Origin: Mercurialis annua
Lineage: Eukaryota; Streptophyta; Magnoliopsida; Malpighiales; Euphorbiaceae
Direction: 5' to 3'
NCBI RefSeq assembly: GCF_937616625.2
Contig: NC_065573.1
Coordinates: forward strand, 4,727,001 to 4,791,000
Length of the DNA: 64,000 nucleotides
Position numbers and translations under genes: made by a program. A model generated the notes under the pieces. The model was not told where the DNA came from. It ran no database searches and was given only the letters and a program-made list of their open reading frames with translations. Below, in pieces: positions 413-61,129 of this stretch (position 1 is its first letter; each line of letters opens with the position of its first letter).

Positions 413-444
413 GTGCGCACGCAGTCCTAATGATGCCCATTAGG
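413..444 (-). promoter_or_regulatory. Conserved LTR stem-loop plus palindrome (A 3' LTR)
   Basis: On the minus strand CCTAATG and CATTAGG (426-444) form a 7-bp stem around a 5-nt loop, followed after 5 nt by the palindrome GTGCGCAC (413-420). The same module occurs in every LTR family of the window with compensated stem changes. Its function is unknown; a folded RNA signal is inferred. Confidence 0.7.
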
Positions 445-2183
445 TAGCATGTTCCAACTAAAAGCCATAATATAAAAACAGTTCGAAATATAACGTACAG
501 TATATATATTTAATATTAAAATAACAATTTACTTAATAAAGCGGTAAATAGTAAGTACAAACTCACTGCTTGCTAATTCACGTGATAACCGGCAAGCAAC
601 TAATCCTGGTTCGCCTCTGGAGCACGAACAATAGACGGGTCTAGACAAATAAAATAATTATTAAAAAACAGACCCTAACTCTAGAGAGTACTAGACAACA
701 CATAGGACTAGCACAAATTACACGTCGGAATTAAATAATCCAAAGCAACACAAAAATACCCAAAAGGTAATAAAGTCCAATTAATATAAGTCTATTGAGT
801 TCTCGCTTTAAAATCCAATTTATAAATATTATTTAATAAACTTTAAATAATAATTAATTTTCAAATATTGGGTTAGCCGAGTTATCATTAACTACCAAGC
901 TAACCTCACTTGTCGGGTGACCCAAGTCTAACCCGACTCAAAACATTTATCAATATAAACCCGAGTTTATATTTAGAAAACAATTCAATAAAATAATAAT
1001 CAATTTTAAAAGCGGAACTTAATAACTTCAATTCCAAGTAACCCAAGTTACATCCCAAAAATCTAACCATTTTAAGTTTATAAAATTTTAGGGGTTAAAC
1101 TGTACTTTAACCAATTAGGGCTAAACTGTACTTTAGCCAATTGGGGACTAAACTGTACTTTAGCCAATTTGATATCCAAAATCAAATTAATTACCTTTGT
1201 TTATAATTTAAAACAAAGTATTAAGTAATCAACCAAAAATCGATTTAATTAAGATATAAAATAAGTTCAGGGGCTAAATTGTAATTTAGCCGATTACATG
1301 CCAAATTGGTATACTTATTTAAATAGGATTACCCGAGATGGTGATGACCTACACGAAGTTTAACCTTAAGGATTAATTTGGTTTAAGTAAAAGACTTTGG
1401 TGATCAATATGGTTATTTGACCATCCCTTCCATTTAAACCAAACATCAATCCCCGCCAACATGAACAATCCAGTAATCAAATTCTCAAACCCGATCTTAA
1501 TGTTTCATTACCAAAATCAATCAACCTATTCCTAAAGACAATAAATCACCAATGTAATCAACTAGTAAAGCCATGAACCTTAGAAACTTAGAACTAAAAC
1601 AACACAGTAATTGATTATCAACGAAACAGAGAATCGTTAAAATGATGGGTACGAAACGATGGATTCAATCCACAACCGAAAGCTTAAATACCAATAACTA
1701 ACATCCCATGATTCATAGTCATGATTATAGCAAAATAAAGCCAAAGGAAAGATGGAAATATTCGGCAGAATCATTCATCTTGGCATGAAACAGTATATAT
1801 AACATTAAAGCGATAACCGTACGGCGATTGAAACGAAATCGATAGCGTACCGTTCAACGAAATCAAGGTTGGGAATCGTAGGTATGTGATTCTAGAACGT
1901 CTGAGATCAAACGGTATTGATTTCGATCTAGAAACGAATTAGAACGATCAAAATTACGTAATGCCGTTCAATCGTAAAAACTGGATTCAAATGAAATAAG
2001 AAGCTTACCGGATCAGCAAGGTTTGAGGGGAGAGTTCAGCAACAATTCTCAGTGAAAATGAATGTTAAAGGTGGCTAGGGTTTGCTTGTAGTGTGGAGAA
2101 TAGATTAGGTTTAAAAGTTACGTATTTAAGGGGTCAAAATATAGAGAGAACAATGTCTGAAATGCCCTACTCGCAAGGGTCCT

Positions 2184-2378
2184 GCTGGTCTCGAACGAGA
2201 CCAGCAAAACTGTTGCATTCTTGTTCGAGAATGCTGATTCTCGAACGAGACTTAGCTTAAAATGCTGAGGTCTCGTTCGAGAATCACAATTCTCGAACGA
2301 GAATTCCCATTTTTGGGTCAGGTCTCTTTCGAGACCTGATTCACATGTGGTGGTTCAACCATTTTGGTTGAACCACCA
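2184..2378. repeat. Array of CG-cored hairpins (A 3' LTR)
   Basis: Successive short palindromes share a core like CTCGAACGAG but have different, self-matching arms. Examples are GCTGGTCTCG/CGAGACCAGC at 2184-2205 and CAGGTCTC/GAGACCTG at 2319-2338. A 13-bp arm pair, TGGTGGTTCAACC/GGTTGAACCACCA, closes the array. On the minus strand the array lies 55-250 bp upstream of the TATA-like sequence, so it may act in the promoter. Confidence 0.85.
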
Positions 2379-2516
2379 AAATAAAAAGGACTACACCAAT
2401 TTCTGAAATTTTAACCGGACCAAAAATTTACTACGAATCGAACCGCCCCCCCGAAAAATTTAATTTATTACCGAAAACACATTTAGAAAATTTAAAAAAA
2501 ATTCCGGGATATTACA

Positions 2517-2552
2517 TTCTCCCCAACTAATTATAAATTCGTCCTCGAATTC
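2517..2552 (-). promoter_or_regulatory. Element A polypurine tract and adjoining dyad
   Basis: The minus strand reads TAGTTGGGGAGAA directly before the 3' LTR, a plus-strand primer of the kind used in reverse transcription. Just upstream (2535-2552) lies the dyad AATTCG-AGGA-CGAATTT, which recurs at the same place in elements B, C, E and H. Confidence 0.85.
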
Positions 2553-2632
2553 AACACGATAACAATTAACACCGGAATGACACGTACCCAAGTAAAAATC
2601 ATAAAAATTACAGAAAATCAAGATATCGTACC

Positions 2633-7920: not shown

Positions 7921-7932
7921 GCTCTGATACCA
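7921..7932 (-). promoter_or_regulatory. Primer binding site, initiator tRNA-Met type
   Basis: The minus strand reads TGGTATCAGAGC, complementary to the 3' end of plant initiator tRNA-Met, four bases after the LTR end at 7937. It fixes element orientation and the 5' LTR boundary. Confidence 0.93.
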
Positions 7933-8684
7933 AGTTTGTCACGACTCATTTTCATGAATCAAGACCGGCGCTAGGGTATGGGTCATGTAGTACCAAAACC
8001 CGTAGCTAGCCTTTCGATTAACATACAAACACATAAACCTGCAGAAAACCAATGCTCGGGGCAACCGACACTTCAGCCTAGATCTAGCAGTTATAATATT
8101 CAGCTATTAAAATAACATGATTTCCAATAATAATATTAATTCAGTTTAACATAAATAATTCTGAATAGTAATATAACATGCCCAAGCAATAATAATCCCG
8201 TCGGACCAATCCGACAACAACTAAAATAAAATAAAGACGTCTAGTCAACTAATGCGGTCTAAGAATAAAATAGTTGATAGTTCAAATAAAATAAATGGAA
8301 CCTCCGAAGAAAAGTAAAAGCGGAGATCACCAGACTCTCTCAGATCTTAACCCTAGGAAAAATTGGGAAAATAACGGGGTCAGATATACTGAGATGGGTT
8401 TATACCACTATCTACATTTATTAAGTGGAAAACCTTTAAAACCGTTTAAAATATTTAATAACGATATTACGAATAATAGTTGGAACCCTAATCCACAATT
8501 CTAAATAAATAACATAATCCAATAGGTCTGGTCCCGAGAGCTGAGCTACACCGAGTTACCACTGACCACACTTATACCAGAGTTCCGAGAGCTGAGCTAC
8601 ACCGAGTTACTCTACTTGGTCCCGAGAGCTATGCTCACACCGAGTTACCACATTACCATAATTACCTTTCCCAGATCATTATTG

Positions 8685-8716
8685 GTGCGCACGCAGTCCT
8701 AATGATGCCCATTAGG
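8685..8716 (-). promoter_or_regulatory. Conserved LTR stem-loop plus palindrome (A 5' LTR)
   Basis: Stem CCTAATG/CATTAGG at 8698-8716 and palindrome GTGCGCAC at 8685-8692, 5 nt apart. It lies about 760 nt from the LTR's 3' end, downstream of the TATA-like sequence and so inside the likely transcript. Confidence 0.7.
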
Positions 8717-10648: not shown

Positions 10649-11767
10649 AAAATAAAAAGGACTACACCAATATCTGAAATTTTAATCGGTTTAAAAATTT
10701 ACTACGAATCGAACTGCCCACTGAAAAATTTAATTTATTATCGAAAACACATTTAGAAAATTTAAAAAAAAAATCGGGATATTACAGAAACGTAATGAAA
10801 GTATGGAAAAAAGAAAATTAAATTACAACAAAATAAATATTTTAATATTGTCACGACCCGATTTCCGCCTAGAAACTCGTGCCGAGACCGGCGTTAGGGA
10901 ATGGGAATGATTGTTCCGAAACCCGTAGCAAGCCTAGAAAAAACAGTAAAAACTTTTCGCGTTTTGAAAACATAAAAGGTCTCAATCTCTTTTTGCAAGT
11001 ATTTGAAAACCTTCAGACAAACGTGTAATCAAAACCATGCAATTGCATTTCTGGACTCAGGGTAATACGTGTACACTGCACACACATCTTGACACAACCC
11101 TGTCCAGAAACAATGCCAGCGGTGCAAACCAGTTATCTCATTAGATAACCGGTTTAAGCATGCCAAATAATTAATCACAAAGCTTTTGTCAAAACCAGGT
11201 TTCTTATAAACAACTGGCAAAAGCCCTTTTTATAAAAACATGCTTTTGTCCCAAAATGATACTGACAGTAGTTTCATATCAGAGTTTAAACGTTTACAAT
11301 TGAACTATTGTTCGGAGCTAGAACTACTCTGCAGCTCTAGAATGACCTTTATTTAGTTACAACTTCCGGAGAAAGAATTGGAAGTCTTGTCACGTCAAAA
11401 TATCATTTACCTGTGAAAAGGGAAATCAACGGGGGTCAAATATGAGTGAATTCACATAGTTACTCAGGCATATTAATAAAAGCAGAAATCGCATGTAAAC
11501 GCACTTTGTGCAGCCAAATAACCGATCCAAATGAAACCCTAAGACAAACCCCATTTGGTTAACTAGGTACCACAGTTAATGCTCTCTTGTTTAACACATG
11601 ATGAAATGTGAACTCATGTCACACAATCATCTTATCTCTGTGTAAGGTTTGTTGGGCCGTAAATTGAATTACTGGCTTCCCTGCATAACATGTTAGGTCT
11701 AGGCCGCTTTGCAAGCATCTGGCCAAAGAACCCAACTAGTATGCAATGCAATGGTTTATTAATACCG

Positions 11768-11799
11768 GTGATCACACTGTCCTATTGTTTCCCAATAGA
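11768..11799 (-). promoter_or_regulatory. Conserved LTR stem-loop plus palindrome (element C)
   Basis: Six of seven stem pairs are kept (CCTATTG with CAATAGA in plus-strand writing, 11781-11799), with the palindrome GTGATCAC at 11768-11775, five bases away. Confidence 0.65.
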
Positions 11800-12332: not shown

Positions 12333-12462
12333 GGCAGCACGATCGTGCAACCTTGTGCACGGTCGTGCTGCCTGGTGCACGTTCGTGCACCTTGGGTGCA
12401 TGTTCGTGCACCCAGGCTAGTGCACGTTCGTGCACAGCCCCGGGAAACGCGATTTCCCGGGC
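12333..12462. repeat. Palindrome array GTGCACGNNCGTGCAC (element C)
   Basis: Five or so near-palindromes built on GTGCACG/CGTGCAC with central TT, GT or AT and partly matching flanks, ended by a CCCGGG-armed hairpin (CCCCGGGAAA/TTTCCCGGG). It lies about 350-480 bp downstream of the TATA-like sequence on the transcribed strand, so hairpins would appear in the RNA leader. Confidence 0.85.
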
Positions 12463-19855: not shown

Positions 19856-19886
19856 CCTATTGTGTGTCAATAGGCAGTGTGATCAC
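19856..19886 (+). promoter_or_regulatory. Conserved LTR stem-loop plus palindrome (element H)
   Basis: Perfect stem CCTATTG/CAATAGG at 19856-19874, palindrome GTGATCAC at 19879-19886, 4 nt apart, preceded by GAAACGAGCTA. Confidence 0.7.
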
Positions 19887-20642
19887 CAGTTTCAGGTAAG
19901 TCTTAGCAAATAGAATTAGACTAACTGCTTTGTGTGAGATACAAGGGTCAGATTGGTGGAACTATCCCGCGACCTGTATCTAATGAGTCACCTTGGTTGA
20001 GCTATCCCGGGACTCATATCAATCGTTGGATTTGAGTGATGGTACGAGTCACCTTGGTTAAACTATGTCGGGAATGTACTAGATGGTATTGATTGACTTT
20101 GTTGAACTATCCCGTAACCTACCATCAAGATTAATAAATCTTTATTTCTTGTGAATACTAGAAAATACCTAGTTTAGTATTGTTTGAAGATTAGGGTTCC
20201 GATCAAATCGGATGTTTGTTTTGTTTTGTTATATGTTTTGATATATGTTTATGTGATTTGTATTTATAATACCTTGTGTAAATACGAACTCTTTCAGTGT
20301 TGACTGACATCCCTACACTGTTTCCTTTTCAAGCTTTGAGTAATTGAGGAGGTCGAGCTTCCATTCTTTGATCTAGAAGTCTCAATTTGAAAGCTTTGAG
20401 TATTCTTAGCGTTGCAGTAGTCCGTAGATGTCAAAAATACTACGATGTTTATGTATCAAATAGATGTTTGTATTGTACTCTGATATTATGTTTATATATA
20501 CATAATTCTGCTTCCGCTTTTGATCGATGTATGTTTGATCGTATTGAGTAAACTTTGTTTGATCTTAGGCTTGCTACGGGTTTCGGAGCTACCACTCCCA
20601 TTCCCTAGCGCCTGTCTCGACCCTCAAATTTGAGTCGTGACA

Positions 20643-26433: not shown

Positions 26434-27473
26434 TTTATTATCACGACCCGAATTCCACCCTAATCCAAGTCACGACCGGCGCTAGGAAATGGGAATGCTT
26501 GTTCCGAAACCCGTAGCAAGCCTAGAACCTCTAGAAATTTTTCGCAAATATTATTAAAAGATCGCCCCTCGCGTGCGATCCATTTTCAGAAAACACCGTT
26601 AAAACCTTTCTCGTTTAACGCAAACACATTTCTGAAATTATACATATAAGCGAAATCTGGTTTTCAGAAGCACTGGTTGGATAACCTTGTTATCTCAACC
26701 CTCGCTTCCTTCTGAAAACCTGGCGTGGTGATAGGGACTTATCTTTCGCTTGCCTTAACACACAGGCAGCCCTGTTCCCAACCACACACCACCGTTAATA
26801 TGTTTAATAAAATATAGCGGACACCTCTGCGTCTCGCAACGGTGGTATTAAACATATTAAAATACACAGCGGACCGGTTACACATAGCCGGCGTATAAAA
26901 ACATACTGTTTTTGACCCTCACAAATACACACGAGGCCGACTCGGTAACTAGATACAATATGCCACTAAGCAGACATCCAGAAAGTATACACATGCACTA
27001 GATCCTATCAGAGTATCTAACAAAGGACTAGTGGCACGGCTGCTGGCACATTACACTTATACTATTGCAGCATACTTGTAATATCCCGTGTTTTCAAACT
27101 TGTTTTGATGGTTTGGTTGTTCGTTTAAATTTGGTTATTGATGGACTTTGGTTGTGTTTTCGCTTCGACATGTTCTCGTTGTGATTCCAACTTATTTTCG
27201 GATTGATATATGTTCGTATTAGCATATGTGGTGCCTTGGTTGTGTTATGTTGAGTGACTTTTATGTACCCCTTGAGCCTCTAAATATTTGATGTTAAATT
27301 GATTTATTTCCGGCTTGTTATCAAAATAATATTTGCATGTTTTTCAAATCTTCCATGTTGTAGTAAAACGTACATATCTCCCAATTGAACCGTCGGATCG
27401 GGCTGCCCTTTGGATATGTTGTACATAAGAGGATTATCGTTCATTCGACCGTTCGGATCGTCGTTTCGACCCG

Positions 27474-29299: not shown

Positions 29300-29331
29300 C
29301 CTAATGGGCATCATTAGGACTGCGTGCGCAC
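29300..29331 (+). promoter_or_regulatory. Conserved LTR stem-loop plus palindrome (B 5' LTR)
   Basis: Stem CCTAATG/CATTAGG (29300-29318) and palindrome GTGCGCAC (29324-29331), preceded by GGAACATGCTA. Confidence 0.7.
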
Positions 29332-30094
29332 CGATATTGATCTAGACAAGGTATGTAATATTTGGGGGTAACTCGGTGGTAGCCTAGCTCTCGGAACCCA
29401 GTAGAGTAACTCGGTGTACCTCAGCTCTCGGGACTCTGGTTATGTATTAAGTGTGGTCGGTGGTAACTCGGTGTAGCTCAGCTCTCGGGACCAGGCCTTT
29501 GAATTAAAGTATACAAGTTAGAATATTATGGTTTAGGGTTCCAACTATTATACGTAATGTTTATATTAAATGTTTTAAAAGGGGTTTAAAGGTTTTCCAC
29601 TTGATAAATGTAAATAGTGGTATGAACTCATCTCAGTATATCTGACCCCGTTGTTTTCCAAATTTTTCCAGGGTTATGATATGAGCGAGTCAGCTGCTCT
29701 CCGATTCTTTATTTCCTCGGAGGTTTTATTATATTTAATAAGGTTATTAAACTGATTTTATTCTTAGACCGCAATAGTAAATTGAAGTCTTATGTCTAAT
29801 ACTTGTTATAAATTTATTCAATGAGTTATTGCTATTTTGGCATTCTTTTATTAACTTGGGTTAATATATACTTCTGCCATGTTTAAGACTCAGAGTTGGC
29901 TGAGCACTTTATAATAAATGTTGTATATTATGAACTGCTAGAACTAGGCTGAAGTCTCAGTTGCCCCCGAGCATTGGTTTTCTTGCAGGCTTATGTATTT
30001 GTTGGTTATCCGCAAGGCTAGCTACGGGTTTTGGTACAACCATACCTATACCCTAGCGCCGGTCGCGATTCATGAAAATGGATCGTGACAAACT

Positions 30095-30106
30095 TGGTAT
30101 CAGAGC
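30095..30106 (+). promoter_or_regulatory. Element B primer binding site
   Basis: TGGTATCAGAGC, initiator tRNA-Met type, four bases after the LTR. The 37 bases following the LTR are identical to those of element A. Confidence 0.93.
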
Positions 30107-34396: not shown

Positions 34397-37395
34397 TGTA
34401 ATATCCCGTGTTTTCAAACTTGTTTTGATGGTTTGGTTGTTCGTTTAAATTTGGTTTGTGATGGACTTGGTTGTGTTTTCGCTTCGACATGTTCTCGTTG
34501 TAATTCCAACTTATTTTAGGATTGATATATGTTCGTATTAGCATATGTGGTGCCTTGGTTGTGTTATGTTGAGTGACATTTGTGTACCCCTTGAGCCTCT
34601 AAGTATTTGATGTTAAATTGATTTATTTCCGGGTTGTTATCGTGCATGTTTTTCAAATCTGCCACGCTGTAGTAAAACGTACATATCTCCCAATTGAACC
34701 GTCGGATCGGGCTGCCCTTTGGATATGTTGTACATAAGAGGATTATCTTTCATTCGACCGTTCGGATCGTCGTTTCGACCCGTTTTCGGGTCAACCGGAC
34801 CTTTGAACCGGACCAGCTGGGTAGATCAAGCCGTAGGTCCGGTCCACTTCGTTTTTGGTTAGAACAGTGGGTCAACCGGCCCTAGAACCGGACCTGCTGG
34901 GTAGAACCGGCCAGCTTCGTTTTTGCATATTTAAACTAATCAGCCCCCTTTCGATTTTAGAAACCCTAAACTCATTCTAAACGTTTCTCGCTCAATCTTT
35001 GGTGCCTCAATCAATTGGTAAGTGATTAATCCATCTCTTTTCATTCCAAAAGTTTGAATCATCTTTTGATTTGATTAGTGGTCCATCTTGTCTTTTGATT
35101 TCTTTCTTGTAGCATTGGATCTACCTTGTTTTTGAGATTTTCTTACTCTTTGGATTGACAAGGTATCTAATCCTTTTACTCAATTTGATTCTTGTGTTGT
35201 AGTGTTGTTGTTCATATTTTGTGATGTTGTTTGTTGTGACAATGGTTTGGATGAATAGTGGTTGTTCTTACATGTTCTAGGGTTGATTTATCATGTTGAT
35301 ATTATTGTTATCATCCATTGCATGTTTATTGAATCAAATCAAGAATCGGTTACCATAGATTCACAATTTCATATTGCGTTATGTATAAACTGTTTTGAAT
35401 TGATTAGGGCTGCCCATAACTAAATTATCATGTTATAAATAATTGGATTTTATTATTGTTGATTCATATTAGGAGGATTATGTATAACGCCAATTGATGC
35501 ATTAATTTGTCATTCATTGTAATAATTGACTCGTATGTTCTTGGTTGGTTAATTTGAATCGGAATTGAGTTATCCAATTGTTAGTTCATGTGTGGTTTAG
35601 AATTATGGATTCATTTGGATATTATAAATTGTTTGGTTGCCTAGATTTGTCCAAGCATGATTAGAGGGCTAATTTGCATGTATTTGCGATTCATAATTGT
35701 TGGGCTATCTATTGTTGTTTCGAATCAAAGTTTGGTGATTGTTAAATGAGTTGGTATGTTGATGAATGCCTGTAAACTGTTTTGACTTAATTTAAATGTT
35801 TAGGGCTGTTTTGTATAATGTTTTTAGGATAATGTTATACTTGGATTATGGTGGTTAGTTTGGTTATTGACATTGCTTGGGCATGAGGAATACGCTTATT
35901 ATTAATTTGTTTGCTAAGACATGTTTTGACTTGTGTTGTCTATTAAAGCGTGTTGGTTCATTATGGATTTTATCAAACACTTTGTTACGTGTTGATTAAT
36001 TGGTTAGTTAAGCGATATTGAGTTCCTTGCTTTTCAAACTCGGGTTTTGGATTATTAATTGATTCTGGATTTTTAAACATTGGTTTACAACTTGGTTATG
36101 TTGGATCGGGTTAGACTTGGGTCGCTCGACATGAGAGTTAAGCTTGGAAGTCTTGGTTGACTCGGCTAAGTACAATTTTGGCTTTTGAAATGTTTTACCA
36201 AATAGTTTGAAAAGGTTTCCGGATTATGTTTTCAAATGGAACTCAATAGGGCTTAACCTGTTTTGCAATTTTGGCATATGGTTGGTGTTTATGTAATCAA
36301 TCTGTTTTAGTTTGTGCTTTGGCTTTGTTGTGTTGTGCTAGTACTATGTGGTGTTTAGTACTCTTTAGAGTTAGGGTCCATTTTTAATTTATTATTTACA
36401 CATTGTTAGACTTGTCGACTGTTCGTGCTACGGAGACGAACCGGGATTAGTTACTTGCCAGGTTATCACGTGGATTAGCATGCTGTGAGTTTGTACTTAC
36501 TATTTACTGCTGTATTAAGTAAATTGTTATTTTAATATATAAATATATACTGTATGTATATTTCGAATTATTTTTCCATTATGCCTTTTAGTTGGAACAT
36601 GCTACCTAATGGGCATCATTAAGACTGCGTGCGCACCGGTATTGATCTAGATAAGGTATGTGATATTTGGGGGTAACTCGGTGGTAGCCTAGCTCTCGGG
36701 ACCCAGTAGAGTAACTCGGTGTAGCTCAGCTCTCGGGACTCTGGTTATGTATTAAGTGTGGTCGGTGGTAACTCGGTTTAGCTCAGCTCTCGGGACCAGG
36801 CCTTTGAATTAAAGTATACAAGTTAGAATATTGTGGTTTAGGGTTCCAACTATTATACGTAATGTTTATATTAAATGTTTTAAAAGGGGTTTAAAGGTTT
36901 TCCACTTGATAAATGTAAATAGTGGTATGAACTCATCTTAGTATATCTGACCCCGTTGTTTTCCAAAATTTTCCAGGGTTATGATATGAGCGAGTCAGCT
37001 GCTCTCCGATTCTTTATTTCCTCGGAGGTTTTATTATATTTAATAAGGTTATTAAACTGATTTTATTCTTAGACCGCAGTAGTAAATTGAAGTCTTATGT
37101 CTAATACTTGTTATAAATTTATTCAATGAGTTATTGCTATTTTGGCATTGTTTTATTAACTTGGGTTAATATATACTTCTGCCATGTTTAAGACTCAGAG
37201 TTGGCTGAGCACTTTATAATAAATGTTGTATATTATGAACTGCTAGAACTAGGCTGAAGTCTCGGTTGCCCCCGAGCATTGGTTTTCTTGCAGGCTTATG
37301 TATTTTTTGGTTATCCGCAAGGCTAGCTACAGGTTTTGGTACAACCATACCCATACCCTAGCGCCGGTCGCGATTCATGAAAATGGGTCGTGACA
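34397..37395 (+). repeat. Element B 3' LTR
   Basis: Colinear with the 5' LTR. Differences include a roughly 33-bp segment near 35186-35220 not present in the 5' copy, loss of part of the ACCGGACC block, and scattered substitutions. It ends GGGTCGTGACA. Confidence 0.95.
36605..36636 (+). promoter_or_regulatory. LTR stem-loop with one broken pair (B 3' LTR)
   Basis: CCTAATG faces CATTAAG (36605-36623): one G to A change breaks a pair that is intact in the 5' LTR. The palindrome GTGCGCAC (36629-36636) is intact. Confidence 0.65.
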
Positions 37396-37886
37396 ATACT
37401 AAGAGTACAAAATCCTATGTACATTGCCAAAGTAGGGCTTTCATGAAGATGGGATGTGGAACCTCGACTGACCTCAAATCGCATTTCCTGAAAAATGGGG
37501 AAACAACAACGGAGTCAGAAATATAAATATTTCTGAGTGAGTAAACAGTTTACAGATAAATACCAAAATCGCATCATATATATAAAATATTACCAATTTA
37601 TCGATCCATCTGAAACCCTAGTCCACAATTGTCCTAACAGACACTCATCTCACGAGCCTATAGACAACAGAATAAAGACCATGAACTGAATCACTGCCGT
37701 CCAATTCTGTATCTCTGGTACCTGGACCGTAATCAGAAACTGCCTTCGCGGTTTATTCCACGACCGTAACTATATTACTTCCGTCTCAGGGTTTACCCGT
37801 GAAGTCAGGGCATCTACTTTCCCAATGACTTACATGACATGCATACCTCTATACCTCGACAAAAGTACATCTAAAAATCGGTGCTG

Positions 37887-37918
37887 GTGATCACGCAACC
37901 CTATTACTGCCCAATAGG
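37887..37918 (-). promoter_or_regulatory. Conserved LTR stem-loop plus palindrome (LTR X)
   Basis: Six of seven pairs (CCTATTA with CAATAGG, 37900-37918) and palindrome GTGATCAC at 37887-37894. Confidence 0.65.
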
Positions 37919-40555: not shown

Positions 40556-42357
40556 TTATTTAAATACATGTTCACAATTTTTATACAAAATGTTTACTAT
40601 TGAATTCTTTGGTCAAATAATTTAATACTAGTTGATTAGATCATTTTTTTGCTAACTCAAATTTTAAATTATACTCAATTTTAAAAAATATTAAAAGTAT
40701 TTCATCTTTTCTTTGGTCCATAATATTTATCATACTAGCTTTATGTCACGACCCATTTTCATGAATCGTGACCGGCGCTAGGGTATGGGTATGGTTGTAC
40801 CAAAACCCGTAGCAAGTCTTGCGGATAACAGATAAATATCATAATCAACTATGTACCTGCATAAACCACATGCTCGGGGGCAACCGAAACTCCAACCTAG
40901 TCTAGCAGTACATTTAAATAACAAACAATAGCATGAAAACTAATATATAATACCAAAATCGTTGTAATCATGCCAAAATTGATAAAATAATAGTTGGACC
41001 AATCCAACAAACAATAGTCTAAAATATAAACGTAAGACTATGACATGAATAATCTGATACTACTACTGCGGTCTAAGAGTTTTAAAATAGTTCAACACTT
41101 TATTCTGAAATAAATAAAGAACCTCCGAGAGTGAAGAAACGGAGATCGACCAATGCTCAAATCATAAACCTGGAAAATTTGGGAAAACAACGGGGTAAGA
41201 TTTACTGAGTAGAGTTTATATAACCATTTACATTTATTAAGTTGAAAACCTTTTATGGATTATCAATGAAACCCTAAACCACAATTCTAAATCCATTGCC
41301 ATGAACCGATCCCCGACTATCACTTAATAAATGGTGAGTCTGTCACGACCCAAAATCGAGGTCCGCGACCGGCGCTAGGAAATGGGAATTGTAGTTCCGA
41401 AACCCGTAGCAAGCCTGAAATTCACTAAAACGTTTTTGCAAATAAACAATCATACAATGACTTTACAAACGCAGCATTTAAATAAAGATACATTTATATA
41501 CACTGGTAAAACCATACAACGTGCTCAGACTTATCGTTTTTGTATCATGTACGTACTAGCCCGGCATAAACCACTATGTCGAAATTACATCACGGGAATT
41601 TACCTCCGTGGTACAATACATAATTATCGTAGCCAGACCAACATGTACACAACAGACAACAACTATAAACCATATAAAATTTCACTGCTGTAATAGGCCA
41701 CGACACTGGTCAGACATCACACTACTGCAGCATCTACGGAAGTCGGGAATGTACAGAGCCAAAGGAACTTCCGGTTAAAGACGGACTTCTAGCCACATCT
41801 AGAATCTAGATACCTGAAAAACACACTATTGGGGGGTCATCTATTAAGCTGAGTGAGTTATACTTTACTTACCATATTATCAAAATAAGCATCGCATTTA
41901 AAACATTTTTTTAACATACATATACAATCATATTTTCAAACAATTCCAACATATACAATCACAGCGACTGCAAACAATTCACTTAAGACTAGTATTTGAT
42001 CCGAACGAAACCTTAATCTTAAACTCCTTAACCTCTCCTAATCTGTATCGTACTCGAATCAAATCATTTTAATCCAAGTGGTACGGTTCCGAGATAGTTC
42101 GACCAAGTTACCGCTACCACGTGGCATAGTCCCGAGATAGTTCGACCGAGTTACTCTTAATCCCAAGTTGTGAGTTCCGAGATAGTTCAACCGAGTTACT
42201 CACTAGATACAGGTCCCGAGATTCCAGATCCACCGAGTTACCTCGTATCTACAAAACATAATCCTCTTTCCATTTCATGATCACAAACATGATCAACATT
42301 TAATGAGCTCATATCAAACGTTTCTATGTACGAATATCTAGACTCTTATAAACACCG

Positions 42358-42388
42358 GTGATCACACGGCCTATTGACGCCCAATAGG
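42358..42388 (-). promoter_or_regulatory. Conserved LTR stem-loop plus palindrome (LTR G)
   Basis: Perfect stem CCTATTG/CAATAGG (42370-42388) and palindrome GTGATCAC (42358-42365), four bases apart. Confidence 0.7.
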
Positions 42389-43198: not shown

Positions 43199-44714
43199 AA
43201 CCTAATTTGCATCAAGACTTATCTCCTATTGAAACCTAATTTAATTTCATAGAATCCAGCCCCTTATACACAATTATAGATCCTTACAATACATAACTCA
43301 ACCCGCATCAAACTCACTTGGACACGAATTCCATATTTTAGCCGAATCATTCATCTATCTCCATACCAAAATTTAACAATCAATTTCAATTATAACTCAG
43401 CCCTAATCATTCAAAATCAAGCTTTTAATCCTTGATTGAACATCAAACCTTAAGTTTACATGATTGCTGAACAATCATCACCTCTCTATTTCAAAATTTC
43501 AATCAATAAAATACACAATTTCGGTTTGCAAACTCACTTTGTATGATGATAACATATGATTTTCAGCTCAAAAACTCAACTAACATCATCATCATCAGAA
43601 ACAACCCATAGCCTTTAAAACCCTAACTTAAATTCAAGTTCTCACCTTGATTGACAGCCATTAGGTGTTAGAGATTAATTTCCCCGATCTCACACAACAA
43701 AATCGCTCCAAACCGTAATCTACACATCAAAACAATTATGATTTTAATCAAACCATACACCTCACCACGAACAGATTATAAACCCTCAATTTCAGAGACT
43801 AAAATTTCATCCTTACCTTGAATTGATTCCATATATTGATAGATAATCCTCTCCTCTTTCCGTTGCCGCAAAAATCAAGCGAATCGGACGAGAAACGAAG
43901 AACCGGCAAGCAAAAGAAGATCATGGAGCTTTGAGAGGAGATGAAGATCTTCTAAACCCTTCCTTGCTGGAAATCAGACTTTGAAGGCTTCATATGCCTA
44001 TGGAGTTGGTATATATAGCTTGGTAAAATATTCTATTTGGTCCTTTAAGTTGCCACATCCATTAGTTTCAATTTCTAACTTTTCTTTCGTCCAATTTAAC
44101 CCATTAATCGCTTAATCGTTCGATCTCGATAAATTTCATATTATTTATATCCAAATAAATAATACTCTTCCTCTTTCTTATTATTTTATAATCCAATAAT
44201 TAATTTCACTAATTTTAGGCAAAAACGCTTAATTTTCCAATTCGAGCGAAAATGACTATTTTCGTCACTTTTTCGTCCTTATTTTGATTTCACAAATATC
44301 GATATCCAATTATTCGATATTATTTTTATAAGTACTAATTCCCATCGATAATCTATTAAATTTCCATTTTCTGGGAATTAAATCCTCATTTTCCAATTTT
44401 CGAGCCTAAGTGCACTTTATCCACTTTTCCATATTTTCCCTTTTAAGTCTAATCCCATTTCCTTTATGAAATTCTTGATATTGAAATTTTCTTATTAAAA
44501 TCTCAATATCGACCTACTCGGGTTCTGTTTTGTTTATTTATTTTCCGATAATTCCTTTTTTTGGCCGCTTAACTGTTTAAATTTAGACACGTAGCCTACT
44601 TTGACAACGTCCGACACACGGGGTATTACAGAGCCCAAGAGACGTATCTTACACCGGTGCCCTTAATAAGGTGAGGCGTATCTCAAACCTACCTCAATAC
44701 CATAATCAATACCG

Positions 44715-44746
44715 GTGCGCACACATTCCCGATGATGCCCATCGAG
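44715..44746 (-). promoter_or_regulatory. LTR stem-loop plus palindrome with compensated stem (LTR D)
   Basis: CCCGATG faces CATCGAG (44728-44746), six of seven pairs. Relative to A and B two stem pairs are replaced on both sides. Palindrome GTGCGCAC at 44715-44722. Confidence 0.7.
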
Positions 44747-48765: not shown

Positions 48766-51700
48766 ATGACAAGGTAAGTAACTTTTATAAATCCCTAAAA
48801 TTTACCTTCTTTGACCTAATTTTTTCCTTTAATCTTTGAATATTCTTCAAACCCAATTTGTAATATTTTTTAAAGTATTTGTTTATGATTAACAGTGGCA
48901 GACTTGTTATTGATTTGTATTGGGGGTGCTTTTTTGGAGATTTACGAGGGAGCCAAAAGGTTTATAATGGGGGAATGTTGTGGCATGTGGAGGTTGATAT
49001 TGATAATTTTACTTTGTCGGATTTTACCAATATCACACGGAATTTGCTAGGAAACAAACAAATTAGCAAGATTCACTTTAGATATCCAGGTAAGTCTTTA
49101 GCACATGGGTTGAGGCTGCTGACTGAGTGGTCAATTTTAGACTTAGTAAAGTTATTACTAGAGCATAAATTGATAGAAGTGTACACTGAGCACCATGTGG
49201 TTTCTGCTGAGGGCAATTTTGGTAATGTCCCTATAAGTGAGGGTATAACTGACATTAACATTGAGTCAATAGATGAAGCTGAGATAAGGCTTATAGATGT
49301 GGGGGTTGGACCTATTAATGACAGTTTTAGTGAGCAAATACAAGGTAGTGGAGTGGGTGAAGAAATTGCAGCTAGTGAAGATGTAATTGTAGCACAAGGA
49401 GTTGCAGCTAATGAAGGTACTCAGTTGAATGTTGACCATGGTCAGGCTGGTGAAGATGAAGAGCCTTCTGATGAAGAAATTGTGGACTGTCCTTATATGT
49501 CATCTGATGAAGAATTGGTACAATCTAGATCTAGTTTGAGGGATTTCAAGGAGAAAAAGAAACAGCTAGCAGATAAAATTAGATCATACAAAAATGCAGA
49601 CAATGAAGAGGTAGAACCTTCAGTTCAAGCAACTGAGCAACAACAAACTGACAAAGGTGTAGAGCAAGAGGGAAGTGGCACTGATTATTGGGATTCAGAT
49701 GAAGAGAATGAATGCTATAGCCCTGTGACAACAGATGATGAGGATGATGGTGATCCTGCCCAGAGGAGAAGGTCTCCTTTGTTCAAAAGCAAGGCAGAGA
49801 AGCTGTCTTTTGCTCTTGGTATGAAGGTGACTGGAGCACATCATTTTAAAGAAGCGCTTATTAGATTTTCTATTCAAGAAAGAAGGGAGATTAAACTGGT
49901 TAGAAACACACATAAAGAAGTAAGAGCTAGGTGTGTTAAGGCTTCATTCCCATTTCATATTTATGCCTCAGAGGAAACAGAAAGCAAGGGTTTTCTGATA
50001 AAGACTTACAATCCAGAGCATACTTGCCTGGTTACATTCAAGAATAGAAGAGTGACTACAAAGTGGTTGGCTAAGAACTACTTGTACAAATACAAGTCTC
50101 TCTCTCGAATGAGGTTGGTTGATTTGAAGTCTTTAATAAAGACTGATTTAAGGCTGGACATGAGTTTAACAAAGGTGAAAAGGGCTGTGTATGAAGCAAA
50201 TTTGATTCTTGAAGGTGAGGTTAAGGTAGAGTTTGCTTTATTATGGGATTACCTTGAGGAGATTAGGAGATCCAATGTTGGCAGCAGAGCTATTATGAAA
50301 GTGGAAAGGCCTTTGCCACAGTCTATGCCTATTTTTCAGAGATTGTACATTAACTTTTACTGCTTAAAGAAAGGACTACTGAATGGTTGTAGAAGGGTAA
50401 TTGGGCTAGACGGTTGCTTTTTAAAAGGAAATGTCAAAGGAGAAATATTAGCAGTTGTTGGGAGGGATGGAAACAATCAAATATTTCCTATGGCCTGGGC
50501 TTTAGTTGACACAGAAAGGAGGGAAACATGGGATTGGTTCATCCAACTGCTTGCAGAGGATCTTGAAATGGGGCAAGGGGCAGGATGGTGCATTATAACT
50601 GACCAACAAAAGGTATATCTCAACTCTGTATTTATATGGTAGTTATGAATTATTAGTTAGGTTGTTAGTTAGGTTGTTAGTTAGCAAATGTTAGTTAGGT
50701 TGTTAGTTAGCAAATGTTAGTTAGGTCGTTAGTTAGTGTTGTTTTTTGGGTGAATTGTTGTTTATATGCATTATAATTTGCAGGGCTTGTTGGATTCAGT
50801 AGCTGATTTGCTACCTAGAGCTGAACAGAGGTGTTGCGCAAGGCACCTTTATGCTAATTGGAGGAAAAAATGGAAGGAGAGAGGATTTGCAGAAGCAATG
50901 GTGGAAATGTGCTAAGTCTTCGAATATGCCCGATTTTGAGATAAATATGGAGGCAATGAGACAACTCACACAAAAAGGCTTGATGACATGTTGGTTACCC
51001 ATCCTAGACACTGGTGCAGAGCATACTTTACAACTGAGGTAAAGTGTGATATAGTTGATAATAATTTAATTGAGGCTTTTAATGGGAAAATTATAGAAGC
51101 TAGAACTAAGAATGTTATTTCCATGTTAGAAGACATAAGGTGTTTAGTTATGAATAGGCTGCGTACTAATAGGGACCTTGCATCTAACTGGATAGGTGAT
51201 TTTGGTAATAGAATAAGAAAAAAACTCCATGAGAGTAAGGTAAAAAGTGGTAACTGTGAAGTGTTATGGAATGGGGATGATGGCTTTGAAATAGGGCAGT
51301 GTGGAGATAGCTATGTAGTCGGTCTGAAAAACAGAACTTGCCTTTGTAGACAATTTGACTTAACAGGTATTCCTTGCCCCCATGCATTTTGTGCTATCTC
51401 ATACTTAGATGAAGATCCAGAAAATTACATTTCCCATTGGTTTAGGAAAGAAACCTGTTTACAGGCATACATGCACATGATGCAACCAATGAATGGGAGG
51501 AAATTTTGGGAAAAAAACCCCATATACCCACCTCAGCCCCCTCCATTCAAAAGGATTCCTGGCAGACCTGCAAAAAACAGAAGAAAAGAAGAAGGAGAAG
51601 CTTCTAGTGGGTATAAGTTATCTAGAAAGGGCAGAGTCATGACTTGCCAAGTCTGTTTTGAGAAGGGTCACAATAGAAAAAAGTGCCCCAACGCTCCACC

Positions 51701-52613
51701 AAAAGATGGTAATAGGACTGGGAATCAACAAGTGACAAGGGAGAAAACACAGAATCAACAAGTCACAAGGGAGCAACCTGCTAGGATATCAAAATTGCAT
51801 GTAAGTTATGTTAGTCAGTTAGTATAAAAGTTTTTGTAACAACTTCTATAATGCAAGTGTCTGTTTCAACTTGTTTTCAGTTCGTGAGAGCAGCACATGA
51901 CACACAAAAAGGAAATGAGAGTGAAACATCACACTCAAATGCAGCAACTAGTGGAGTCACCAATCCAGTAATCATTTCAAGAAATTTTGGGAGCAATGTG
52001 AAAACTTTTGAGAGAAACATTCCAGCTGCAAAAAGTAATCCAACTTATATTCCAGGATTGCATAGCCAGCCTGTTAGAGGATATGGTGTATACAATGATT
52101 ATATGACAAACACTTACGTGACAAATGTAAGATTTTTTAGTTTTTATTTTGATTATTTGGCTGTTAGTTGTGTTTTTTTATATGTAGTAGCTAGTGCATC
52201 ATAATTAAGTGGTTTTTTATTCGTAGCCAAAAACCACAAGTCAAAGGGTCATACACAGTGAAGGTGTTAGAAGAGTTGGTAATGAACCTGAACCATTATT
52301 TATGACTGGAAGAGGAGTGGGTTTAAAGAGACGGGGAAAACAATGTGTGACTACATTTCAACCACAAGTATTTGCCTTGTATTTTTATTATTTGTCTACA
52401 AATGGTTATTTTCTTTGAGTTTTTGTATATATATGTGACTTATAAGAGTTGCATTTTATATATTTTTTCTCATAGACGAAAGCAACAACTAGAGCCAGCA
52501 AGAAGGTTAAAAAGACTACAACAGCTGAGACTTCAGAGCCAATTATCACTACCCAAGACTCTGTCAGATCAAAACCAGCTCCAGACACTTTGCCCGAGCA
52601 CTCTACGGCATAA
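48766..52613 (+). pseudogene. MULE transposase (MuDR family), six exons, frameshifted
   Basis: Proposed exons: 48766-48773, 48896-50612, 50784-51800, 51881-52126, 52227-52367 and 52476-52613. All introns have GT-AG ends; those after exon 2 are phase 0, supporting the model of about 1,088 codons. Order: PB1-like N terminus (SGRLVIDLYWGCF), acidic Glu/Asp-rich linker, MULE core with Asp in GLDGCFLKG (about residue 508), Asp in ITDQQKG (572) and Glu in NNLIEAFNG (about 672), SWIM finger CLCRQFDLTGIPCPH (about 760), and zinc knuckle CQVCFEKGHNRKKC (about 862). Exon 3 carries two compensating frameshifts bracketing LQKQWWKCAKSSN (about 50875-50980); in the main frame TAA falls at 50913-50915. An unspliced start at ATG 48885 is the alternative. 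Confidence 0.88.
50649..50745 (+). repeat. Short tandem repeat in transposase intron 2
   Basis: Three to four copies of GTTAGTTAGGTTGTTAGTTA with GCAAAT spacers, about 25-bp period, in the intron between exons 2 and 3. Confidence 0.85.
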
Positions 52614-55021: not shown

Positions 55022-55320
55022 TTATATATAATGACCGCTTTATAATCTATTTTTGTTACTCTTTTGTTCATTTTCTATAGAATACAACTCATTTCAAATT
55101 ATATGCTGTTTATTCTTATTTTTAATATTTTCTTTTTTATTTATACAACTTGATTCATCATTTTATGTATCAAACTAATTTCGTAATGAAATAAAAGGAA
55201 AAAAATTATAAACTACAACTTTTAATTTTTAATTATCACCAAAATTTATTATATTAATTTTATTTGCTAGCTATTAAAAAATTAAAGGAACACTATATAA
55301 TACATCAATAATTAATTTTA

Positions 55321-55639
55321 GGGTTAATTACATATAAAGTCACCACCTTTACACGAATTCTCAAAAATAACACGACCTTTAAAACGTGTCAATTCATGGC
55401 ATCACCTTTCATTTTTTTTTTAAAAACAACATGAGCACGTTTTTAGATAAAATGTTGCTGACTTGAACACTCAATGGGAGTGCCACGTGTCATGCCACGT
55501 CAGCAAAAACGCCACTAAAAATGTGCTCATGTTGTTTTTGAAAAGAAATGAAAGGTGGTGCCCTGAATTGCCACGTTTTAAAGGTCGTGTTATTTTTGCA
55601 ATTTCGTGTAAAGGTGGTGATTTTATATGTAATTAACCC
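55321..55639. mobile_element. Mutator-type MITE, 319 bp (family 1, copy 2)
   Basis: Same family as 40239-40555, inverted relative to it. The duplication TTAATTTTA is perfect (55312-55320 and 55640-55648). It lies 300 bp from the family 2 MITE. Confidence 0.95.
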
Positions 55640-56512
55640 TTAATTTTATTTTAAATGGCAACTGATACCAAATGCTTGAATAAAATATTGTCAAAAGTCA
55701 TGTTTTTCAAAACTTTATATGTATACTTTTTATTTTAAGTTTCACAATATCACGACCCAAATTATTGAGCCGAGACCGGCGCTAGGGAATGGGAGTGGTA
55801 GCTCCAAAACCCGTAGCAAGCCTAAAACCACTAATAATTTTTCGCATTTAAAAACATATTATCATATATATAGAATATTTTCAGAAAACTCTTTTAGATA
55901 ACATACTTATAGATATCAAAGTATTATATTAGAGTTTACATTCAAAATAAACTATTTGAAATTAAATCGCTATCCTTATACTGACTACTGCAGCTCTAGG
56001 AACTCATACTGGTGCAAGTCCAATGACTTTTGGCACAATGGAGATGGCTTGTCTGATCCGACTTCTAATACCTGCAAACATCAGAGTGAGGGGTAAGTAT
56101 TTGGAAAAATGCTGAGTGAGTATGCAACTTATTATCGGTATTATCAAAATACACATCGCATACTCAAACATATATATATATTTATCTCGATATAATATGA
56201 AAATAACATAATATTCATAAATAGCAGATCCGACCGAAACCCTAATCTTAAACTCTGAACTTATCTCACTCCGAATACTCGAATCAAACTGATCCAAGTG
56301 ATCCGACCCGGGAGTGTTCACACTCAACCACGTCAGCCGCGACCAATCTCTTAATCTCAAAGTGTGAGTTCAACTCACTGGTGGGTCCAACCCACTAGAT
56401 ACGGGGCTCAGGTTACACCGTAACCGAGTTCTCACTCGTATCGCATTCATATCGTATGCGCATTTCATAATCTCATAGACAATCTAGACACGCTAGACTG
56501 ACTCAAATACTG

Positions 56513-56543
56513 GTGATCACACAGCCTATTGACACCCAATAGG
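56513..56543 (-). promoter_or_regulatory. Conserved LTR stem-loop plus palindrome (element E)
   Basis: Perfect stem CCTATTG/CAATAGG (56525-56543) and palindrome GTGATCAC (56513-56520), four bases apart. Confidence 0.7.
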
Positions 56544-57133: not shown

Positions 57134-57262
57134 GGCACGTCGTGCCAGCTTGGCACATCGTGCCCTTCACTGGTGCACGTCGTGCACCCTTGTGTGCACG
57201 TCGTGCACCCTTGTGGTGCACGTCGCGCACCAGCACGACGTGCTGAAGTGCAGCACGTCGTG
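57134..57262. repeat. Palindrome array GCACGTCGTGC (element E LTR)
   Basis: Seven or so palindromes on GCACG-T-CGTGC with varying flanks (GGGCACG/CGTGCC, TGGTGCACG/CGTGCACC). A smaller group with GTCGCACGTCGTGCGAC lies at 57607-57652. Both are downstream of the TATA candidate on the minus strand, by about 390-430 and 780-910 bp. Confidence 0.88.
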
Positions 57263-58659: not shown

Positions 58660-59000
58660 TTATTCCCCCCTTATAAAAATTCGTCTTCGAATTTTCATAT
58701 ACTTTTCATACTTACTTTAATTCCCTTTTGCATCTAGAATTTTATTCATAGTAGGGACTCCGTGTTCGCTTTTACGTTACTTGTCGGTGCATGAAATCGT
58801 TATTCCAATTTCTATACTTCTTGCACTTTGACGTCAGTTATCATTGACAGCCTGATCTTTGATCTCTTCTCTTTATTCTGTAACACAATCTTTGCGTTTG
58901 TCCTTTGTCTGACATTCAATACTATGAACTCTTAGTTTAATACTGATATCCCATGATAATTCGTTCTAGCGATACTTTATCACTAAGGACGATAATCCTT
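58660..59000 (-). other. Element E interior tail, cut by element F
   Basis: The minus strand ends AAATTCG-AAGA-CGAATTT (58677-58694) and AAGGGGGGAATAA directly before the LTR. The remaining 300 bp show no coding homology. Element F begins at 59001, so the rest of E may lie beyond the window. Confidence 0.75.
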
Positions 59001-60228
59001 TGTAATACCCCGTATTTTATAAGCCACGTGTAAAGGTTTTATTAGCCGGGAATACGTAAATTAAATTTAAACGTAAATTTAATTTATAAGTATCCCTAAA
59101 AGTATATCGTAATAATAGGAGTTTCAAAAAGTTAAATCGAGGTTTTAAATTTTAATAAAGGAATATGACGGGACTAATAGAACATAAAATACGACTGGAA
59201 TCGTAAGATAAATATATATTGATAATTAATATATCAATATACCACTCTAAGTGGAGAGTTTAATATTTCGGACAAAATCCCGAAATTAAAATGTCGAAAC
59301 TCGGAAGTCTCGACGTGTAATTAAAGAATATAAGTTTAGATATATATATATATATAAATATATATATTAAAAGAAAAAGAAAAAGGAAGTGATAAGAAGA
59401 GAATAAGAAGGAGAGGCGGTGTGAAGTGGTAGGCAAGTTGTGGAAAAAGAATCATTTGGTCCTTGGATTCTTTACTTTAATTAGTTTTAGTTATAAACTA
59501 ATTAAGTATTATTCGTTAGTCCAAATTAAAATAAAATAATATATAAGTCCCGAGCGAATAATTTTGGTGTCATTATTCGCGAAATAATTTGACGAAGCTA
59601 TCGTCAAAGTTTCATAGAATTTGGACGTAGAAAGTTTAATCAAGTGAGACTGAGTTGGACCTAATAAATCTTCAGAGATTTATTAAGAATAAAATATAAG
59701 TCGGATAAGAATAAAAATTATATTTTTATTCTTATTATATTTTATTAGATTTTTGGGTAAAATTTTACGAAATTCGGAAGTCGTTTTCGTTTAAATTACG
59801 AACGACTATTTAAGATTTTGAGTTAAAGTGGTAAATTAACCAAAACATATATATATAATGTTATTGGAATGAATTGTGCAACACAATTCATTTGCTTCAT
59901 CTCAGAAGCAAATTGAGAGCTGCTTTCTCTCAAAGCAGTGCGTGAAATTAGGGCTCGATTCCGATCCGTCCGTTTCTCGATTCTAAATCCGTTTCTTCGA
60001 CGATTACTCGAGTAATCGAGGTATTAAATCCATATTAAACGTTTATTTTAATATATTTCGATATATTTCGAATATATATTCGTTTATAAACGGTTACCGT
60101 ATCGAACGATCGATTTAAACGTCCAAATTGTAATTGAATGGTGTATATGTGAAATAGGACATGAGAATAGCGTTTTTGGATGTTTTAAGCAGGACGGAAA
60201 GTCCCGGAATTTCAATTCCGGGGCTGTG

Positions 60229-60374
60229 CGACCGTACAGCACAGTGTGCGGGCGCACACTGTGCTGTGCGAGCGCACAGTGTGCGGGCGCACACTGTGCT
60301 GTGCGGCCGCACAGCATAGTGTGCGGGCGCACACTAAGCTGTGCGGGCGCACAGCAACCCCGACGGGTTGTCGG
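60229..60374. repeat. Palindrome array GTGCGGGCGCAC (element F LTR)
   Basis: Alternating palindromes: AGTGTGCG-GG-CGCACACT, GCTGTGCG-GC-CGCACAGC and GCTGTGCG-GG-CGCACAGC types, ended by CAACCCCGAC/GTCGGGGTT. It follows the same CCCGGAATTT/AATTCCGGGG-type leader hairpin as in X and C, but the array itself is unrelated in sequence. Confidence 0.9.
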
Positions 60375-61097
60375 GGTTCGTTTCTTTCGGGCTTCTAGGG
60401 GGACTTTCCGGGGGCGATTCCGACGTGCTTTCGCCTAATAACCCGAGGTGTTTTTAATCAAAATTAGATATTTTAAAACAATAACTTGTGTTAAAAGAAA
60501 GTGAAATATTTTAAAGCCTAAGCCAAAGACTTTTAAAATGAGATTTTAAAAGTAAAGTTAAACGTTTAAAAAGGACTTTAAAAGAGTTAAAGTCGACGTT
60601 TAACCGGTTTAAAAGATTTAGCAAATGATGTTGCTAAATAATTAGTATATGGCTGTGAATTGTTTTGGCAATCAAGTCTATACTATTAAATGATTTTAAT
60701 TAGGTATAGTTATACCTAAAAGAACTTCTAGATTGAAGTCTAAACGTTTTCTCGAGGTGAAAACGGTTTAAATGGTTTTTAAAGAGAAAGAGACCATACG
60801 TGCTATGTGTTATGTGAATTGATTGATTTGATTAAACCTAGGTTTCAAGACCTAGATGTTTATACCAGAAATGAGTATTGATGTTTGGCTTGTGTGTTTT
60901 GTATGTTTGATCCGACTAGCTGTCCAGCAGTCAGACCAGGACTCAGGGGAGTCTGTCACACCTACGACGGTGCTAAGTAGTAACTTAGCAGTACTGTGAG
61001 TTTACGTGTTTACTTTTGAATATCAGTATTCAATTATTTTTAAATCCATAAATCGTAGTAGTATAACTTAGCCAGAAAGGTCCATTGGAACAAGCTA

Positions 61098-61129
61098 CCT
61101 ATTGGGCAGCAATAGGGTTGTGTGATCAC
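61098..61129 (+). promoter_or_regulatory. Conserved LTR stem-loop plus palindrome (element F)
   Basis: Perfect stem CCTATTG/CAATAGG (61098-61116) and palindrome GTGATCAC (61122-61129), preceded by GGAACAAGCTA; about 1.25 kb downstream of the TATA candidate. Confidence 0.7.

Follow-up and report, generated by a model that had tools for sequence, protein, structure and literature searches.

A covarying hairpin-and-palindrome module in chromovirus-like long terminal repeats of Mercurialis annua, a candidate RNA dimerisation signal

Why should long terminal repeats (LTRs) of several families retain one short, self-complementary module? We addressed this question in a 64,000-nucleotide stretch of the Mercurialis annua genome (contig NC_065573.1, positions 4,727,001 to 4,791,000 of the forward strand; hereafter the window, whose own numbering is used throughout). 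Read in LTR orientation, the module comprises a lead, a hairpin of 7 bp with a 5-nt loop (HP1), a gap of 4-5 nt and an 8-base palindrome, GTGATCAC or GTGCGCAC. This layout, originally predicted from the sequence alone, is present at all 11 sites, the copy B3 containing one mismatch. We favor the view that the module is an RNA signal in the leader of Tekay-like chromoviruses, similar to a dimerisation hairpin, and place the probability of this reading as a whole at about 0.45.

Eight LTR families in the window (A, B, C, D, E, F, G, and X) contain the module. Nine had been claimed, but the sites at 37887 and 61098 (X1 and X2) are 87.6% identical and represent a single family. The families form three or four groups, A/B/D and E/F/G plus C and X, the latter two having an additional ∼390 bp of upstream sequence in common (73% identity). 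On the minus strand we located modules A3 (409..444; HP1 426-444, HP2 409-425, HP2 being a second hairpin described below) and A5 (8681..8716; HP1 8698-8716, HP2 8681-8697) of family A, and those of families C (11764..11799; HP1 11781-11799, HP2 11764-11780), X (X1, 37883..37918, in an LTR split by element B), F (42355..42388; HP1 42370-42388, HP2 42355-42369), D (44711..44746, in an LTR split by the F LTR) and G (56510..56543; HP1 56525-56543, HP2 56510-56524). The plus-strand modules are those of family E (19856..19889; HP1 19856-19874, HP2 19875-19889), B5 (29300..29335; HP1 29300-29318, HP2 29319-29335) and B3 (36605..36640) of family B, and X2 (61098..61133; HP1 61098-61116, HP2 61117-61133). 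Ten LTR 3′ ends recognized by their terminal block, together with A3, which is truncated by the window edge, account for eleven LTRs with eleven modules. Every window LTR with a 3′ end thus carries the module, and an LTR start at 21559 has neither 3′ end nor module. The distance from module end to LTR end is ∼0.68-1.16 kb (0.7-1.2 kb in the original prediction). A position downstream of the TATA box, also predicted, could not be confirmed, as TATA-like strings occur at inconsistent places among the LTRs.

The module is highly specific within the window. A covariance model built from the 11 modules (R1) scores them at 65.8-85.1 bits, the next window match reaching 13.1 bits. A second model (R2), built from A5, B5, D, X1, and X2 only, detects out of sample the modules of C (E-value 1.7e-12), F (4e-9), G (2.9e-7) and E (1.1e-4), and returns the 11 modules and no other window match at E-values up to 1. 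All six occurrences of GTGATCAC (0.68 expected) and five of the six of GTGCGCAC (0.13 expected) lie within modules. Groups share on average 74% identity over model columns 10-57, compared with 34 and 44% in the outer columns, and the module is often the sole alignable LTR block between groups: outside it and the terminal block the LTRs are mostly unalignable, with the exception of C and X. We rejected a coding role because the open frames spanning the modules are short (23-80 codons); no homologue of one such frame was found. A known RNA family was likewise rejected, none of the 30 Rfam 15 matches up to E-value 1 overlapping a module. Nor does the module have the features of a Sirevirus-type motif, which has many copies per LTR and a CGG-CCG core: there is one module per LTR, with the palindromes GTGATCAC/GTGCGCAC.

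The arms of HP1 had been proposed to change together. In the window, 76 of 77 HP1 cells are paired, the only true mismatch being an A-C in B3; the mispairs reported for C and X (X1), and a further one in D, become G-U pairs when read as sense RNA. Parsimony on a hand-set tree places one switched pair in the ancestor of A/B/D and two in D. Against a null preserving these parsimony events, P is 0.000-0.002 with event columns permuted and 0.01-0.15, varying with transition bias, with columns kept. Given few independent double changes and this range of P, covariation in the window alone is suggestive and not conclusive.

We also analyzed genome copies, all from one host genome and from 32 sampled places that were partly chosen. 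A search of the 451-Mb genome with TACCTATTG-N5-CAATAGG, allowing up to two mismatches, returned 8,601 and 8,434 near-matches on the two strands (17,035 in total; 82 + 72 = 154 for the reversed pattern). Our sample of 48 loci consists of 8 from the pattern search, 20 chosen stretches (10 of them picked for a changed middle base in the 5′ stem arm) and 20 evenly spaced 10-kb stretches. R1 finds 33 modules at 32 places (L133 and L137 overlap); the evenly spaced stretches contribute 5 of these modules, from 4 of the 20. The alignment was fitted to R1, which has HP1 built into its structure. HP1 is 97% paired across 29 distinct genome copies, with double changes that preserve pairing at six of the seven pairs; none of 500 shuffles does as well, and slid partners pair in 23-50%. 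The proposed joint change of the arms is thus borne out by the genome copies. When 40 distinct copies were placed on a FastTree tree, 7 HP1 cells were broken, where a tree-conditioned null gives means of 20-40 (P 0.000-0.016); this held for trees computed from all columns and from the untested columns only. Pairing in HP1 therefore exceeds phylogenetic expectation; the corresponding result for HP2 is weaker.

Among the evenly spaced stretches, L168 has A-T as first HP1 pair, and L175 has the arms CTCGATA/TATCGAG. Forcing the third base of the 5′ stem off T recovered 1,159 copies (control 0). Among 100 of these that were listed, the third pair is a compensated C-G in 87 and unpaired in 13 (21 and 10, respectively, among 31 distinct rows), and 70 carry T-G at the second pair, 24 T-A and 6 C-G. 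Forcing the middle stem base to C or G gave 18 copies only (11 G-U, 6 C-A, and 1 G-A) and no double change. RNAalifold and single folds proposed a longer rod that joins the lead to the palindrome's first half (GYGTG), and its window counts taken with HP1 looked good. We rejected it: its basal helix gives P 0.09-0.46 against the null, and in the genome sample 81.1% of its cells are paired versus 81.0% in shuffles.

Directly 3′ of HP1, a second hairpin (HP2) of 3-4 bp can form around a 9-nt loop made of one pyrimidine and the palindrome, GUGAUCAC or GUGCGCAC. Its arms are ACTG/CGGT, GTTG/CAAC, CCG/CGG, or CTG/CAG, and the gap, best read as an HP2 arm, would owe its length of 4 or 5 nt to them. 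For HP1 and HP2 taken together, the window shows double changes at 6 of 11 pairs with 94.9% of cells paired; the five broken HP2 cells are in A5, B5, C, D, and E. HP2 alone gives P 0.02-0.18 (permuted) and 0.04-0.46 (columns kept) in the window. Among the 40 copies it has 10 broken cells, compared with 19-40 under the tree-conditioned null (P 0.000-0.025 with event columns permuted, 0.000-0.104 with columns kept). HP2 as a second hairpin exposing the palindrome is thus supported but not proven, and less strongly than HP1. All 11 window copies and 28 of the 33 genome matches retain an intact palindrome; of the five that do not, three belong to the copies picked for a changed stem. Cofolding two copies brings all 8 palindrome bases into intermolecular pairs in 7 of 11 cases, and the dimer gain exceeds the mean for scrambled 8-mers in 9 of 11. 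A second hairpin around the palindrome fits the idea of a dimerisation site.

The module is accompanied by further structure at the LTR 3′ end, where the final 76-87 bases fold into two hairpins, T1 and T2, just upstream of the primer-binding site. They are found on the minus strand in A5 (7937..8012), C (10849..10935), X1 (26439..26523), D (40744..40819), F (41341..41416), and G (55748..55823) and on the plus strand in E (20567..20642), B5 (30015..30090), B3 (37320..37395) and X2 (62203..62287). Fold z-scores, computed for four of these ends, are −4.15 (A5), −4.54 (E), −2.34 (X2), and only −0.83 (C); z-scores from sliding windows were not specific. The inner pairs of T1 switch jointly in the window (AU/UA and AU/GC; P 0.002-0.037 permuted, 0.02-0.18 with columns kept). 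We then took 58 T1-like blocks from a loose search of the window and the genome loci and reduced them to 36 distinct copies with a 3′-arm filter weighted to the outer pairs. In these, three inner pairs switch (17-34, TA 27/CG 7; 21-30, AT 23/TA 11; 22-29, AT 19/GC 13), and 47 of 540 cells are broken, G-U (20) and A-C (18) being about equally frequent. T2 pairing is conserved (P 0.0007-0.004, columns kept), with G-U pairs biased to the sense strand (P 0.0003-0.003), and a hairpin is the minimum-energy fold in 29 of 29 distinct segments listed, a count made without shuffle control. T1 lies ∼630-1115 nt downstream of the module on the same strand in 29 of 33 model matches (28 of 32 places); distances were tallied with a loose regular-expression detector, using only rows that coincide with model matches.

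Which elements carry these LTRs? Located LTR starts read TGTAATA and ends GTGACA (GTGATA in X1 and G), and LTR length is ∼2.5-3.3 kb for A5, B, C, F, G, and X2 (the starts of E and D were not located). Element A encodes RVT_1, RNase H, H2C2, and SH3_Tf2-1 domains (Pfam), and its reverse transcriptase, over 84% of its length, matches a Mercurialis annua protein at 92% identity. No Pfam Chromo match was obtained in the element A reading frame up to E-value 1. A sunflower homologue (P0059), whose Chromo domain spans residues 1029-1078, aligns by tblastn over residues 705-1077 in A and 869-1077 in C. The assignment to the chromoviruses (Ty3/gypsy) is based on reverse transcriptase, RNase H, and integrase in Ty3 order with a C-terminal chromodomain; coding matches come from A and C only, and the remaining families were not placed by protein. 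The sequence TGGTATCAGAGC follows within a few bases of the 3′ end of three LTRs, in A (7921..7932, minus strand), B (30095..30106, plus strand), and X2 (62292..62303, plus strand), and we take it to be a primer-binding site for initiator tRNA-Met. Beet chromoviruses are described as having such a tRNA-Met site in the sections of PMC3605345 consulted, and the LTR length of 2.5-3.3 kb would fit the Tekay clade as described there. Element B (27077-37395) has paired 3-kb LTRs that are 94.5% identical, a primer-binding site and a polypurine tract, and tblastn of its interior (30096-34396) with three pol or gag-pol proteins gave no match; it is probably non-autonomous or decayed, having retained the leader hairpins.

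In the reading that we favor, the module would act in cis as an RNA element within the long 5′ leader (R-U5 of the LTR) of genomic RNA from Tekay-like, chromodomain-containing Ty3/gypsy retrotransposons. HP1 and HP2 would form two adjoining hairpins, HP2 presenting the palindrome in its 9-nt loop and HP1 stacking beneath it as a scaffold. Two genomic RNAs might then kiss via their HP2 loops and extend into a longer duplex, and the resulting dimer would be packaged, with T1 and T2 before the primer-binding site as part of the same leader architecture. The structural part of the originally predicted RNA signal is supported by HP1 covariation and by T1/T2 pairing, and we consider an RNA-level structure of the module quite probable. 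Granted such a structure, a role in dimerisation or packaging is somewhat favored over other tasks.

Several observations weigh against this interpretation. Ten modules were tested for fold energy and none stands out (z −1.75 to +0.27), and pairing in the module shows no bias to the sense over the antisense strand beyond chance (P 0.185-0.36). For HP1, the number of switched pairs taken alone gives P 0.000 with columns permuted but 0.009-0.112 with columns kept, and two of the six switched pairs are represented by one copy each (L168 and L175). HP2 was picked after inspection of cofold output; its 95.2% pairing in the genome set is equaled by 78 of 500 plain shuffles, and its switched-pair count (P 0.005-0.019 permuted) rises to P 0.19-0.42 with columns kept. 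The symmetric change of the palindrome claimed in the original prediction is seen, but consists in the window of one two-base step from AT to CG (permuted P 0.11-0.24). Genome copies with a gap of 5 and G or T at palindrome base four number 59 (40 GTGTGCAC, 7 GTGGGCAC, 6 GTGGTCAC, 4 GTGTACAC, and 2 GTGTTCAC): strict palindromes are the four GTGTACAC only, the 40 GTGTGCAC are palindromic only if G-U is allowed, and 15 are neither. Among the 100 listed third-base copies, GTGTGCAC (8) and GTGCACAC (6) are roughly equal. These variants fit decay of dead copies, largely at the central CpG, by which constraint is neither proven nor excluded. L175 has lost the palindrome while keeping the HP1 and HP2 arms. 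In cofolding, the best dimer of 4 of the 11 copies does not use all 8 palindrome bases, the gain for B5 and D is below the scramble mean, and it beats all 30 scrambles in only four (E, B3, G, and X2). The 0.68-1.16 kb between module and LTR end also exceeds the distance to the primer site in retroviruses, and the inconsistent TATA-like strings leave R and U5 not defined.

Much of this evidence could be accommodated by a structured RNA with another task, such as nuclear export, gag translation past a long leader, 3′-end formation or help in first-strand transfer, the palindrome not joining RNAs. HP1 covariation requires folding only, not dimers, and a review describes, in the part consulted, a structured export element with a kissing-loop motif in the mouse LTR element MusD (PMC12786077). 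This explanation would however leave the 8-base palindrome unaccounted for, which is kept in the proportions given above and self-complementary in both of its forms, and we regard it as unlikely, although a serious competitor. Somewhat less probable is a DNA site, at which a homodimeric host protein would read the palindrome and the adjoining inverted repeat as an LTR enhancer or silencer. The missing strand bias of the module speaks for it, as do palindromic tandem repeats in the U3 of several window LTRs and the palindromic repeated motifs of Sirevirus LTRs, which the relevant passages of PMC2829016 liken to transcription activators. However, a binding protein would be expected to hold the sequence, whereas the HP1 arms switch at six of seven pairs with complementarity kept and the HP2 arms, offset by one base from the palindrome, switch as well. 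The module moreover is located together with other RNA-like hairpins, one of which is sense-biased: T2 alone carries strand evidence, which points to the genomic RNA, and T1 and the module show none. We thus favor RNA over DNA because the arms change in sequence yet remain complementary and because the module accompanies other hairpins; the DNA reading retains its share of probability because the module lacks strand bias and the symmetry of the palindrome is based on very few changes.

Slow change of old LTRs related by common descent, with no present function, would be compatible with the relatedness of the families and the decay-like single changes in many copies. It is disfavored by the covariation tests, pairing exceeding the tree-conditioned null, and by a module that is 74% identical between groups whose flanks are mostly unalignable; we consider it very improbable. 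Within the dimerisation reading, an extension deserves mention, although we hold it to be improbable: the module could lie in R and hence at both ends of every genomic RNA, so that kissing of the 5′ and 3′ copies, in addition to kissing between two RNAs, would circularise the RNA and bring the two R copies into register for first-strand transfer. If so, one module would serve dimerisation, cyclisation, and template switching within a fixed HP1-HP2-T1-T2-primer-binding site leader, across a large plant lineage.

Ty3/gypsy elements occupy large parts of many plant genomes. As far as our literature searches showed, dimerisation and packaging RNA signals of the plant Ty3/gypsy elements are little described, and these searches turned up no paper on the present motif. 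Should it be a dimerisation site, chromoviruses would retain retroviral logic, placed inside the LTR. A covarying module with ∼17,000 near-matches in one genome provides a defined candidate of ∼36 nt which, together with two leader hairpins, is directly testable in vitro.

Additional features were noted in these LTRs. A second conserved block, GTGAGTTT, is located ∼100-220 nt upstream of the module, for example at 11900-11920, 38000-38020, and 44944-44964 (minus strand) and 60996-61016 (plus strand). It resembles a 5′ splice site, with no preceding G in the nine copies seen, and may either be related to U1 or belong to the leader. Immediately before it, families A, D, C, and X have a hairpin whose arms differ from family to family. 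GC-rich, mostly palindromic and enhancer-like tandem repeats (GTGCACGTTCGTGCAC, ACACGTGGCGCGCATGCAC) are found in the U3 of C (12337-12412), E (19020-19257), X1 (38616-38780), G (57171-57231), and X2 (60223-60356). Element B is inserted in LTR X1, with the target-site duplication ATACT on either side, and the F LTR (41341-44630) in LTR D, with imperfect flanks (GAGTC/GAGCC). The LTR start at 21559 has a polypurine tract and is followed by a 25S rRNA-like fragment (21819-22607, Rfam RF02543; whole feature 21559-22607, plus strand); no 3′ LTR end was found after it. The window also contains a MULE transposase in two frames (48879-51827, plus strand; MULE and DBD_Tnp_Mut, with SWIM slightly below cut-off) and two copies of a palindromic element similar to miniature inverted-repeat transposable elements (40228-40566 and 55310-55650), the first resembling Rfam MIR2619 below cut-off.

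We also looked for the module in other genomes. A pattern search of a genome contig collection gave no match. Contigs in seven bacterial assemblies (L001-L007) encode Ty3/gypsy reverse transcriptases 50-66% identical to that of element A and are probably eukaryotic contamination; the module is absent from these short contigs, and a generic search for a hairpin plus palindrome in two of their LTR ends found nothing. In L003, filed as Solirubrobacter and encoding a related reverse transcriptase, a branched fold (645-715, z −3.94; z −1.69 for the longer stretch 630-760) adjoins a 12-base palindrome ∼0.74-0.81 kb before the LTR end, where a hairpin is visible by eye before the primer-binding site; this structure is possibly an analogue in another plant. 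In viral contigs the T1 pattern matched at least 120 stretches, and the sole match to the primer-binding-site pattern was accompanied by neither a reverse transcriptase match nor an LTR-like repeat.

How does the module compare with known systems? It resembles stem-loop 1 (SL1) of HIV-1 in having a stem and a 9-nt loop that holds the palindrome, but the HIV-1 palindrome has 6 nt and is found downstream of the primer-binding site, whereas ours has 8 nt and is upstream. T2, which forms a stem where U5 ends and immediately precedes the primer-binding site, is reminiscent of the U5-IR hairpin of avian retroviruses. With Sireviruses, as portrayed in the passages of PMC2829016 used here, our LTRs have in common conserved palindromic motifs in diverged plant elements and a conserved signal near the LTR 3′ end; those Ty1/copia elements, however, carry many motif copies per LTR upstream of TATA, nearly all with a CGG-CCG core and read as DNA, in contrast to the single module with compensatory hairpins seen here. 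Among the beet chromoviruses of PMC3605345, the sugar beet Tekay element Bongo is similar in its LTRs of ∼2.6-3.0 kb and its tRNA-Met primer-binding site, the other beet chromoviruses among those listed having LTRs of ∼0.4-1.3 kb; LTR RNA structure is not mentioned for Bongo in the passages drawn on. A close parallel is offered by DS/PAL6 of yeast Ty3, a palindrome of 6 nt at the apex of a hairpin from which, according to the parts of PMC11381356 consulted, dimerisation is proposed to begin through loop-loop kissing. Ty3 dimerisation was shown there in vitro, whereas ours is suggested by sequence and cofolding. The Ty3 palindrome occupies nucleotides 391-396 and is among those listed for the gag frame, whereas the 8-nt palindrome described here is within the LTR, precedes the primer-binding site and follows another hairpin. 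In both cases, however, the genomic RNA of a Ty3/gypsy element would carry, close to its 5′ end, a short hairpin with a short palindrome at the apex.

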